This document shows positions 1 to 58,174 of a stretch of 64,000 nt of DNA, piece after piece. Under the pieces are notes generated by a model that was not told the DNA's origin, searched no databases, and saw only the letters and a program-made list of their open reading frames with translations. Source of the DNA: Bacillota bacterium. GTDB lineage: Bacteria > Bacillota > Clostridia > Christensenellales > UBA1242. Positions within the stretch are counted from its first letter, which is position 1, and each line of letters opens with the position of its first letter. The translations under genes were made by a program, and so were the position numbers. The DNA is taken from NCBI GenBank assembly GCA_009784555.1, contig WRBO01000002.1:1-64000 (forward strand), given 5' to 3'.

Positions 1-1181
<1,181 letters not shown>

Positions 1182-4694: not shown

Positions 4695-4812
4695 CTTAAC
4701 GCCCTCCTCTTTTTCTTTTGTTTAGATAGTATACCCTTTTTATGTCGCCATCACCAAATAAAATCAGTCTTGATGTTCCTGTAACGCCGCCTTGCAGGGA
4801 AAACTAACTTTC

Positions 4813-4925
4813 CTTGCCTGCGGAGGAGAAAAGACCACCATGTATCGTGGTGGTCAAAGTTTAATAAATGGGTAGGCCATTTTCTCTGGTCCTCGGCTAC
4901 GTAAAGTTGTTGTTCCCTCGGCGGC
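4813..4925 (-). repeat. Structured repeat, copy A
   Basis: On the minus strand two blocks match the element at 7306-7450. The first is CCGAGGACCAGA-AAA--GGCCT-CCC (4870-4896). The second is CGATACA...TGG-GGTC-TTT--CTCCGCAGG-AAG (4813-4847). In both copies GAGG pairs with CCTC and ACC with GGT, while the inner hairpin differs in sequence. The outer end GCCGCCGAGGGAACAAC (4909-4925) recurs exactly at 5414-5430. Confidence 0.6.
4828..4855 (-). terminator. Intrinsic terminator of the XRE gene
   Basis: On the minus strand GACCACCA-CGATACA-TGGTGGTC forms an 8 bp stem followed by TTTTCTCC. It lies inside repeat copy A, downstream of the XRE gene ending at 4927. Confidence 0.65.
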
Positions 4926-4926
4926 T

Positions 4927-5139
4927 CTATTCTTCAAACCCCAACAGATAATCTGTTGTAACCTCAAAGAATATTGCCAACTTGACAACCGCTTCGGATA
5001 ACGCGTCTGACCTGCCTATTTCCCATTGTCCGATGTTTGTTTTGGATATTCCAACCTCTTCTGCCAACTGTAACTGTGAAAGTTTACGTTCTGTACGCAA
5101 CTCCTTTAACCTCTTCGCAAATGTGCTAACTCTTTTCAT
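4927..5139 (-). CDS. XRE-family helix-turn-helix regulator (70 aa)
   Basis: A minimal Cro/CI-type DNA-binding protein. The HTH occupies about residues 10-63, with the recognition region LAEEVGISKTNIGQWEIGRS and the typical C-terminal phrase FFEVTTDYLLGFEE. I place the start at the ATG at 5139: the longer reading frame upstream has no family similarity, and a TATATA -10-like box ends just before this ATG. The CCCGTAATTGCGGG inverted repeat next to it (about 5153-5166) is a plausible self-operator. Divergent from the small gene at 5211. Confidence 0.85.
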   Translation of the reverse strand: MKRVSTFAKRLKELRTERKLSQLQLAEEVGISKTNIGQWEIGRSDALSEAVVKLAIFFEVTTDYLLGFEE

Positions 5140-5175
5140 AATCCATATATACCCGCAATTACGGGAGAAAAGTAG

Positions 5176-5204
5176 TTGACCGCCCTCATTTGAGAGTGTA
5201 CCAT
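5176..5204 (+). promoter_or_regulatory. Leaderless-type promoter of the 5211 gene
   Basis: TTGACC (5176-5181), a 17 bp spacer and TACCAT (5199-5204), ending 6 bp before the ATG. It sits in the short gap shared with the divergent XRE gene, so the repressor could control both directions. Confidence 0.65.
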
Positions 5205-5210
5205 AAATGT

Positions 5211-5444
5211 ATGAACGAACTTGACCAATACACCGAAGACCTGCACGAATTTTCACAAGCCATGGCTCGTATAGAAAAAATCGCCGACTCACTCGGCATA
5301 ACTCTTAAATCGCTATGTGTCGATTTCACTCCCGCCCGCTTCATGGTTGACTATCTCTACGGTTACATCGACTGCCTCATCGCTAACAACCTCCCACCAA
5401 ACGGTAACTCGGGGCCGCCGAGGGAACAACCTACCACCACCTAA
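5211..5444 (+). CDS. Small hypothetical protein paired with XRE regulator
   Basis: A 77-residue soluble protein, mostly helical (NELDQYTEDLHEFSQAMARI), of no recognised family. The start is set by the promoter 5176-5204, which places transcription at this ATG. A frame opening earlier at 5190 would begin upstream of the expected transcript. The C-terminal end (GPPREQPTTT) is encoded by sequence shared with other repeats in the window (GCCGCCGAGGGAACAAC), so the 3' end may have been altered by repeat insertion. The divergent pairing with an XRE repressor resembles small regulatory or phage-derived modules. Confidence 0.5.
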   Translation: MNELDQYTEDLHEFSQAMARIEKIADSLGITLKSLCVDFTPARFMVDYLYGYIDCLIANNLPPNGNSGPPREQPTTT

Positions 5445-5600
5445 CCAACCCTCTCTCCCTTGCCAGACCAAAGGTGCGGACGAACAATTTGCAGCGCAAA
5501 TTTTCGGCGCGGTTTTTGGTCGTGGGGGTATTGACAAAGGGGCCCTCCCCTTTTGTCCGTTTTTTTGCACTACTTTTTTTGCGGAAAAAAAAGTAGTACT
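5411..5600. repeat. Mosaic repeat with two hairpins
   Basis: The left half (GGCCGCCGAG--AAC--CCTAC-A--AC) matches 33050-33085. The right half has a G-rich hairpin (GACAAAGGGG/CCCCTTTTGTC, about 5531-5556) followed by an A/T hairpin (ACTACTTTTTTT/AAAAAAAGTAGT, about 5569-5597). The order of hairpins parallels the 78 nt repeat at 26673 and 33088. It covers most of the non-coding stretch 5445-5680. Confidence 0.5.
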
Positions 5601-5680
5601 AAAATAATTATCAAATTTTGTCAGTAACCCCCTTGCACAAAAAAATCCCCATGCTACCTTGGGGGTACAAAGGAGGTTCT

Positions 5681-6427
5681 ATGACCAACCAAACAACACA
5701 TTCCTCCACAAATGAAACACACACGGAAACCCTCACAAACGAAACAATCATCCCCCGCGACGCATTTGCATTCCAACGTGAATTCTTCGACGTAACCGCC
5801 GACCTGCCCCCCGAACTATTCAAAGCCGTCATCACCGCCCTATGTAACTACGCACTCAACGGGGAACTCTCGGGCACCGAAACCGCGGAAACAAATTACA
5901 TCATCGAACCCTTACTACAAAACATCACCGCCCGCAACAATCGCTACGATGCGGCCGTCGAAAACGGTAAACTGGGCAAACAATTTGGCTACCTTGGTGC
6001 CGCATTTGGCAAATTGGGTGGTCGTCCGAAAAACACCCCCGTGGCTGACGCCTTCGGGCCAAACGCTCGCCCTTACGGGCTCGGCCCGAACTATAATGAA
6101 AAAAACCCCCCAGTAAAAAACGAACAAAACGAAAACCCCCCAGTAAATGAAAAAGAAAATCATCCCGAAAACTCCCACGAAAATGACCACTCAATCTACA
6201 CCCTCTCCCAAACGGAACAGGTAAATACCGCCCACGACTGGGATGATGACATGCAAATCGAACTCGCCGTCCGAAAACTCCTATTCGGCCACACCGTACC
6301 TACCTACATCGTAAAAAACGGTCGCCTAATCAAAACCCGCTACTATCCGCCTAACTTCCGATTGTTGCATCACTATTTCAACGGCACCCTCAACTTAAAT
6401 CCTTATGAAAAACAAACCACGGCCTAA
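5681..6427 (+). CDS. DUF6291-type, phage-derived protein
   Basis: A 248-residue protein. After a Thr/Asn-rich N-terminus, residues about 28-95 match the DUF6291 pattern common in prophages: an aromatic FQREFF, then LPPELFKAVITALCNYALNG, then an aromatic/hydrophobic stretch ending in NNRYDAAVENGKLG. The middle is a charged linker with two near-identical segments (NPPVKNEQNE, NPPVNEKENH) encoded by a paired C-tract repeat. The C-terminal 60 residues are unrecognised. A perfect AAAGGAGG site sets the start at 5681. Probably a remnant of a phage or integrated element. The role is unknown. Confidence 0.7.
   Translation: MTNQTTHSSTNETHTETLTNETIIPRDAFAFQREFFDVTADLPPELFKAVITALCNYALNGELSGTETAETNYIIEPLLQNITARNNRYDAAVENGKLGKQFGYLGAAFGKLGGRPKNTPVADAFGPNARPYGLGPNYNEKNPPVKNEQNENPPVNEKENHPENSHENDHSIYTLSQTEQVNTAHDWDDDMQIELAVRKLLFGHTVPTYIVKNGRLIKTRYYPPNFRLLHHYFNGTLNLNPYEKQTTA
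6106..6141 (+). repeat. Paired C-tract element, copy 1 (in DUF6291 gene)
   Basis: AACCCCCCAGTAAAA (C-run 6106-6111) and AACCCCCCAGTAAA (C-run 6136-6141) are 30 bp apart and separated by A-rich sequence. The same layout occurs at 33543-33582 and 58115-58153. Confidence 0.55.
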
Positions 6428-6576
6428 CGGAAACGGTTACGCTCGTAATTCCACCAAACCACGGACCACGTGTCATGAATGTGCGCACAGCGCACGGATT
6501 AATGGAAAAATCCCACCGCATAATTCGACACGACCCCTCATAAACATTGGCAACAACGACATTATGGAGGTTCACA

Positions 6577-7299
6577 ATGCAATCGAAACGCAAGAAATTG
6601 GCAAAGCGCATGGGCGTGCTGGTGGTGGTCGGCGCAATGGTCGGGTTTTTCGTGTGGGTCGCCACATTAACCGGCGGCCATTCATCATTACAACAAATGG
6701 CAATGGACAACATTTCCGAAGCCCGATTTTTCATGCGCCACGCACATTCGGAAAATCTGCGCGTGCAATTCTTTTCGGGCGTACGCGAATCCAATTACGA
6801 AATTGACGGGGTCGCGGGCGGCACCACACCCTTTGCCCTCCTGAACGTTGAACCGCGTAATGCCAGTCACCTGGATGACAGCGAGCTTCGCGGCACCCTG
6901 CAAATCGGCACCGAAACAGTCGAAGTCACACTAGAGCGAAACGAGTTCGGGCGAAATTTTGCAGTCGACCTGGGACGCGAGGTTGCGGCGGATGTCGACG
7001 TCCTGTTCACCCTCTTGCCCGTTAATGCCAATGCCGTGCCATTCCCATTGTTGCCCGCCATGCCCGAGGGGTCGATTGATTGGAAAGAAGCCCTGCGTAT
7101 AGGTACCGATTACCTGGCCGAGGCCATGGCAAACGTTACCCAGTTTGAATCATACGTAAAAATCATCACCGACCGCGGCAACCACAGCGCGTTCTGGTTC
7201 GTGCAATTCATCACCAATAACGGCGAAAATCACTTTGTCGTCATCGCGGCCGGCGGCGAAATCATCGGCGGCCAACAACCCGCATCGTCGGTGGGTTAA
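6577..7299 (+). CDS. Membrane-anchored secreted protein, unknown function
   Basis: 240 residues with a positively charged N-terminus (QSKRKKLAKR) and one transmembrane helix at about residues 11-30. The rest is an extracytoplasmic, beta-rich domain without cysteines. The C-terminal part (about 165-240) has a WKEALRIGTDYL helix followed by strands (SAFWFVQFITNN, HFVVIAAGGEIIG), which resembles the PepSY layout, but this is only suggestive. A TGGAGG site at 6565 fixes the start. The 150 bp upstream hold no other credible gene. Confidence 0.7.
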   Translation: MQSKRKKLAKRMGVLVVVGAMVGFFVWVATLTGGHSSLQQMAMDNISEARFFMRHAHSENLRVQFFSGVRESNYEIDGVAGGTTPFALLNVEPRNASHLDDSELRGTLQIGTETVEVTLERNEFGRNFAVDLGREVAADVDVLFTLLPVNANAVPFPLLPAMPEGSIDWKEALRIGTDYLAEAMANVTQFESYVKIITDRGNHSAFWFVQFITNNGENHFVVIAAGGEIIGGQQPASSVG

Positions 7300-7305
7300 T
7301 CAAAA

Positions 7306-7450
7306 AGGGGTCAACGGACAGTCAAGTGTCTTGCGCACCCGAGGACCAGAAAAAGCGGCCTGCCCCCGCAAGCCGCTTTCGATACAATATATCATGGCGG
7401 TCCTTTTTCCTCCGCAGGGAAGCAAGATACTTGACTGTCCGTTGACCCCT
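7306..7450. repeat. Structured repeat, copy B, bounded by 29 bp inverted repeat
   Basis: Arms 7306-7334 and 7422-7450 are inverted copies of each other with one mismatch (AGGGGTCAACGGACAGTCAAG...). Inside lie AAAGCGGC/GCCGCTTT (8 bp stem) and the blocks shared with copy A (7339-7365 and 7380-7426). It fills the gap between convergent genes and could act as a terminator in both directions, but the arm length and the second copy suggest a mobile or MITE-like unit. Confidence 0.65.
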
Positions 7451-57987: not shown

Positions 57988-58174
57988 ATGTCAGTAACCC
58001 TATTTACATCTATAAAACTCATGTTATCCTAAACTGCAAAGGCTAGGCTGCCTAGGCACTTCCATGTTTTGGATGATATAATTTGAAAATTTAATACTGC
58101 CTCCCGTGGGAGAACCCCCCCCAGTAAAAGACGCAAAAGTAATAACCCCCCCCATAAATTAAAATCCAAAACAA
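57988..58174. other. Gap upstream of glyS
   Basis: No gene seen. Contains CTCCCGTGGGAG (near 58101), the paired C-tract element (58115-58153), and two direct repeats TAAAATCCAAAA that bracket the -35 of the glyS promoter (about 58159 and 58179), a possible operator. Confidence 0.45.
58115..58153 (+). repeat. Paired C-tract element, copy 3 (glyS upstream)
   Basis: C-runs of eight at 58115-58122 (AACCCCCCCCAGTAAAA) and 58146-58153 (AACCCCCCCCATAAA), separated by 23 A-rich bases. The only copy outside a gene. Confidence 0.55.

Follow-up and report, generated by a model that had tools for sequence, protein, structure and literature searches.

Multicopy hairpin repeats of ~140 bp with variable stems and fixed internal loops in a Bacillota genome

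The pneumococcal BOX, RUP and SPRITE elements are structured, multicopy and enriched between convergent genes; they would form long stem-loops if transcribed, one member is terminator-like, and their movement, suspected to occur in trans, is mostly inferred (PMC3049150). Rickettsia palindromic elements are ~150-bp palindromes with many copies, some of which are read through by ORFs (PMC10969869), and REPs measure 20-40 bp (PMC3733652). Here we describe two hairpins, A and B, in a 64,000-nt stretch of a Bacillota contig (hereafter the window), which are best read as members of a lineage-specific, multicopy, non-coding repeat of ~140 bp comparable to MITE- or BOX-type elements. This looks like a kind of repeat already known in other bacteria, with an unusual manner of stem evolution. 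As small modular multicopy non-coding repeats, the hairpins come closest to BOX/RUP/SPRITE (PMC3049150), along with Correia-type MITEs; the likeness is one of architecture, with no sequence relation claimed, and it ends with the stems, which are rewritten between copies while the loops stay fixed, and with a sister species, whose hairpins are built alike but form a different sequence family. With Correia elements, NIMEs and other bacterial MITEs (PMC10969869) they share a multicopy, inverted-repeat, promoter-bearing, intergenic and lineage-specific character. Of the suggestion in the preliminary description that this is a MITE family, the multicopy inverted-repeat part holds, whereas the defining cognate insertion sequence with its transposase, a terminal-repeat match and a target-site duplication were not found for these hairpins, the transposase search having covered Y1 enzymes genome-wide and duplications having been looked for by eye at unit ends; for this reason, membership in the MITE class is unproven. 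Rickettsia palindromic elements resemble the family in size, palindromy and copy number but carry a conserved peptide frame; that identity is excluded because the copies here share no such frame, their open frames differing from copy to copy (28% open in copies versus 18% in shuffles). REPs are likewise dispersed palindromes, of 20-40 bp as against ~140 bp here, and a REP/RAYT system was rejected since the source genome contains no Y1 (RAYT) transposase in a search that covered Y1 only. Reading the type 1 and type 2 ends by eye, we noticed no attC core boxes (RYYYAAC / GTTRRRY).

The features of the locus are as follows:

4784-4927, minus strand: copy A, whole hairpin (covariance model 149 bits, E = 2.7e-36; 137 bits with R2), with a type 1 outer stem, GCCGCCGAGGGAACAACAACTTT / AAAGTTAGTTTTCCCTGCAAGGCGGC
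4817-4894, minus strand: copy A core, GAGGACCAGA ... TCCTCCGCAGG, exact pattern match
4927-5139, minus strand: XRE/HTH_3 regulator, 70 aa from ATG (Pfam HTH_3, E = 1e-12), its stop codon touching copy A
5211-5444, plus strand: small 77-aa ORF, oriented divergently to the XRE gene and found at 9 places in the genome
5412-5430, plus strand: remnant of a type 1 5' arm, GGCCGCCGAGGGAACAAC, 17 bp, in the 3' end of the 77-aa ORF (compare C9:36435)
5619-5660, plus strand: left-end, promoter-like sequence, TGTCAGTAACCCCCTTGCAC-N-CCATGCTACCTT, a pattern shared by ~55 places in the genome
5681-6427, plus strand: DUF6291 gene (Pfam PF19808, E = 5e-8), with a second full copy on contig C10
7306-7450, plus strand: copy B, whole hairpin (95 bits with the covariance model, E = 5.6e-22); the outer stem is unrelated and particular to this copy
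7306-7334, plus strand: copy B outer 5' arm, 29 bp
7341-7418, plus strand: copy B core, GAGGACCAGA ... TCCTCCGCAGG, exact pattern match
7422-7450, plus strand: copy B outer 3' arm, 29 bp

At the window edge lies a partial 23S rRNA gene (1-1181, minus strand).

The preliminary description had recognized two inverted copies sharing two sequence blocks, and both blocks indeed recur exactly at 4817-4894 (minus) and 7341-7418 (plus), with no further exact occurrence in the window. The 29-bp inverted arms that it had assigned to copy B pair at 28 positions by Watson-Crick pairs and at one by G-T; copy A has outer arms as well, and ends on the XRE stop codon (4927). Both copies are thus real, but at ~140 bp the element is longer than first drawn. 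The shared blocks pair with each other as proposed, CC-ga-GGA-cma-G with C-c-TCC-gca-GG, within a single long rod of ~140 bases that forms the consensus fold in an alignment of the copies with their flanks; it is this rod that is conserved, whereas the enclosed "perfect" hairpins, although present, are local and specific to each copy. Copy B has a folding energy of -88 kcal/mol (z = -12.7), and the fold of copy A has z = -3.1.

The family is considerably larger than the two copies from which it was first recognized. In the source genome (1.12 Mb, 29 contigs), the exact frame GAGGACCAGA-N(30-60)-TCCTCCGCAGG occurs 12 times, and not at all when read backwards; none of 59 relatives contains it. 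The covariance-model search of the genome and its relatives that had been proposed as a check was run with a model built from 11 copies, copy B being left out: it returned 31 genome copies at E <= 5e-12, including copy B (E = 5.6e-22), and none in 58 other genomes of the same family. These 31 copies are, like MITEs, short (115-204 bp), dispersed, non-coding stem-loops. A second model, built from 32 copies, added ~11 more divergent copies (E <= 0.0015) that lie in other repeat units in reverse orientation, which brings the family to 31 copies at the least, and probably to over 40, in a single small genome. The count is a lower bound, since 5 of the 31 copies lie less than 1 kb from a contig end (~1.6 expected), as repeats that break assembly would.

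Beyond the 58 family genomes, a search of 396 genomes of the order found no member of the repeat family, a weaker negative given that 8 candidates were scored per genome, and a pattern scan of GTDB genomes gave 29 matches, most of them resembling coding sequence and none convincing (best covariance score, 17 bits). IMG/VR yielded one true match, L072 (3300010369_000279); all 4298 bp of it align with contig C16 of the source genome at 99.7% identity, so it is not an independent occurrence. This match is a termite-gut metagenome contig, its metagenome identifier occurring in a termite-gut paper (PMC7800795). L072 is viral by its IMG/VR label, yet it carries ordinary bacterial genes, e.g., an ABC transporter ATPase. 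The copy at C16:20710, like that in L072, combines a type 1 5' arm with a type 2 3' arm; we draw nothing from this chimera because both contigs end there and it may be an assembly artefact.

Across copies, the stems change in sequence while their pairing is kept. In an alignment of 36 distinct rows, which includes a few near-palindromic reverse-strand self-matches and, being fitted to the model, is biased towards it, 93.2% of cells are paired and 35 of the 45 stem pairs have changed on both sides, a number reached in 0 of 500 shuffles. Two-sided changes amount to 218 cells versus 57 in shuffles; slid structures score 0.05-0.10 against 0.39, and shifting the partner by a single column collapses the score. 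This is covariation beyond chance for one consensus structure in the sense used by Rfam, and neither of the outcomes that the preliminary description would have counted against it, an absence of further copies or broken pairing in them, was observed. The stems can also be read without any model, each type's arm meeting its own near-perfect complement:

type 1: GAGGGAACAACAACTTT
type 2: GGAGCAAATAATTTTCGC
C5:50102: CTGGAAAAGGGTCCGCG
C18:777: CGACATAGGTGCTTTGCG
C9:1974: AAAATGTAGATATAGGGTCTGCG
copy B: GGGTCAACGGACAGTCAAGTGTCTTGC

Set between these variable stems are asymmetric internal loops, GA opposite RCA and CMA opposite C, which are kept in nearly all copies, and at the base of several types a constant unpaired GACGAG stands opposite (C)GAAGGA.

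How the stems change points to a process at the DNA level. Among 32 unique copies, 1242 cells hold a Watson-Crick pair, 53 a G-U pair and 13 an A-C pair, with the majority of the G-U pairs at one column pair and the three apical pairs; wobble is thus nearly absent from the main stems, which have little strand bias and swap bases almost always in strict Watson-Crick fashion. Drift under RNA selection would be expected to leave more G-U intermediates on one strand. Between copies at least 90% identical, double changes are as frequent as single ones and G-U intermediates are few (36 double Watson-Crick changes and 8 that enter or leave a G-U pair, with 26 of other kinds), although few columns lie behind those comparisons in which the short L030-type copy takes part. 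A single template switch, in which one arm is copied from the other, can give a long inverted repeat paired changes (PMC8794818); such events are documented to create and maintain hairpins (PMC8794818; PMC7202029), quasipalindromes in E. coli being an example (PMC7202029), and covariation alone is therefore no proof of selection. The earlier proposal of selection on structure is in this respect only partly borne out: the paired double changes fit it, but template switching could produce them too. The invariant unpaired loops are better evidence of selection than the covariation, because their asymmetry is what arm copying tends to erase, yet their sequence is fixed across unrelated stems. Together, the double-change pattern points to arm-to-arm copying of DNA by template switching combined with selection on the loops, rather than to ordinary RNA drift alone; strong selection in which intermediates are rare, or gene conversion among the copies, could also account for the double changes.

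We find it somewhat probable that the family is a non-autonomous mobile or selfish hairpin repeat, whose arms would evolve by copying and whose loops would be kept by recognition. A folded DNA hairpin or cruciform phase, during replication or transposition, would let one arm be copied from the other; such a step is suggested by the double changes, the few G-U pairs and the documented cases of template switching. A mobilizing nuclease or transposase, or a host factor, might recognize the hairpin at its loops and so keep these invariant, and insertion near gene 3' ends may be tolerated, where the hairpin could replace an ordinary terminator, as perhaps in copy B. Mobility itself we infer from the dispersal of the copies, no movement having been observed directly. 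By eye, no target-site duplication was seen at unit ends, and relatives, at ~65-75% DNA identity, are too diverged at orthologous sites for a base-resolved empty-site junction. More tentatively, and as a possibility rather than an expectation, the family may represent a class of hairpins with a folded single-strand or cruciform DNA stage, concerted stems, fixed loops recognized by an enzyme, and sequence families that differ from one species of the genus to the next.

Functional RNA structure is by convention proved through covariation, and the family bears on how far this can be trusted alone: with probably more than 40 copies in this one genome and paired changes that seem to be single DNA events, it is a natural test set. 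It would also be a described structured mobile repeat family in a little-studied lineage.

Many copies sit in short units of ~120-470 bp that begin with the left-end sequence. TGTCAGYAACCCYCTTGMMC, with up to 3 mismatches, is found at ~55 places in the genome; it resembles a promoter, with TTGACC or TTTACA as the -35 element and TGnTAY as an extended -10, in the arrangement TTTACA-N16-TGnTAY. At most of these sites two C-tracts, ACCCCCCCC-N(~25)-ACCCCCCCC, follow within ~120-470 bp downstream, and at most of 46 listed sites TGTCAG is directly preceded by unrelated sequence. Many such units, starting with the promoter-like TGTCAGYAACCCCCTT, contain the family hairpin. Two genomes of the same genus, G002 and G003, lack the left end in the stretches searched (400 kb and 396 kb, respectively). 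A further short unit with left end and C-tracts lies at 57989-58160 of the window, where the family hairpin was not recognized. Two other modules with changing hairpins are also present. One, TTCGGGCCAAACG..stem..GGCCCGAA, is stem-variable and occurs in both orientations at L102, L104 and L119, at many unit right ends and inside the DUF6291 gene (window 6055-6095); the other, a variable small hairpin of the form ACCACGTGTYATNAATGTG-(AACATAGTT or CGCACAGCG)-CACGGATTAATGG, is readable as a zinc-ribbon-like peptide and lies at window 6466-6505, with copies on C12, C15, C23 and C9.

The promoter-like starts (TTGACC / TTTACA-N16-TGnTAY), which in several copies lie just before the hairpin, allow for a second explanation, namely that the hairpins are small structured RNAs or 3'-UTR elements whose RNA structure is selected and whose loops bind a protein or ligand, the left-end promoter transcribing the hairpin or the hairpin capping mRNA 3' ends. 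Copies that directly follow an XRE or small-ORF stop codon in sense orientation, the conserved internal loops and the frequent G-U at one position agree with this. We nevertheless consider it unlikely: the stems are nearly devoid of G-U, which shows no clear excess over A-C outside the apex and that one position, the ~11 divergent copies run antisense to the left end, and Rfam searches of the window and the hairpin loci, by gathering threshold and by E-value, matched no family.

Several copies are also associated with small gene cassettes. XRE-type ORFs recur next to them, and outward-facing hairpin pairs enclose XRE/ORF cassettes on C10 (43184/43607), C9 (35836/36435) and C5 (45146/45821), with no recognized transposase inside; the pair at C4 68093/68323 has no XRE/ORF genes between its members. 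In the window, the hairpin of which the arm remnant at 5412-5430 was part is otherwise missing. The DUF6291 gene of the window is preceded by the left end just as hairpin units are, and in many left-end units the hairpin and C-tract region occupy the place of the DUF6291 coding part. Such arrangements would be expected if the hairpins were terminal or replication structures of phage- or satellite-like elements carrying XRE, ORF, DUF6291 and the zinc-ribbon-like ORF, with the short units as decayed forms. This explanation, which overlaps with that of a mobile repeat, draws on the flanking pairs, on the left end and C-tract motif that the DUF6291 copies share with hairpin units, and on the match of XRE to phage repressor families. 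It appears quite unlikely, as the ORF and DUF6291 match no phage family, no recognized capsid, integrase or replication gene lies beside these genes, and the left-end pattern is without a match in IMG/VR.

Comparison with the same genus bears on whether the hairpins might be ordinary bidirectional terminators that resemble one another by chance. The S20-TSCPD locus (C10:34757) is syntenic in the sister species G002, where, at the same spot, a different hairpin (z = -10.5) lies 7 nt after the TSCPD stop codon. It belongs to a family of four copies with the core AACCTTAGACC...AGGTC-RCA-GTT and differing outer stems, which in three of the four comprise 23 to 28 pairs and no more than one mismatch, and the region upstream of S2 in G002 likewise has a long hairpin where the source genome has a hairpin unit. 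Homology of the two families is not established, since the second model matches nothing in stretches of G002 and G003 (best E = 1.2), and the common architecture may reflect common descent or convergence. The position of copies near gene 3' ends would suit terminators, as would the G002 hairpins, in which A/T tracts at the base are frequent and several of which lie between convergent genes. In the source genome, however, the copies are rods of 140 nt that lack a U-tract and have conserved internal loops, and simple short terminators stand at orthologous loci (a plain intrinsic terminator at the copy B site in G002, a plain terminator at the counterpart of the C15 site in G003), which makes a chance resemblance very improbable. 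G002 has a second long hairpin family, with a GGTGCGGAA ... TTCTCGGTTT frame and differing stems, at gene ends (L212, 3970-4156; L214, 11521-11702).

That a reverse transcriptase (RT) of the genome copies the hairpin RNA, as in a retroelement, is scarcely credible and was rejected as a general mechanism: two RT genes are present in the source genome and none in the same-genus genomes G001-G004, but one is a UG26-type defence RT (PADLOC RT_UG26, E = 5e-155) with its own RT-5 RNA, unlike the family hairpin, the other is DGR-like, beside an Avd-like ORF and variable-region-like sequence, and G002 has its own hairpin family yet no RT. RT-5 (RF03026) is a structured RNA of the source genome too, but of different structure and at one locus, directly upstream of the UG26 RT (L147, 1105-2419; C15, ~20.2-21.2 kb), an arrangement suggesting an association of RT-5 RNA with UG26 RTs. 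The second RT lies in a likely diversity-generating retroelement (L148, 882-2714; C4, ~16.3-18.2 kb), with the Avd-like ORF of 140 aa upstream and the variable-region-like ORF (NGNANANNWNWNNSNAVRPA) downstream.
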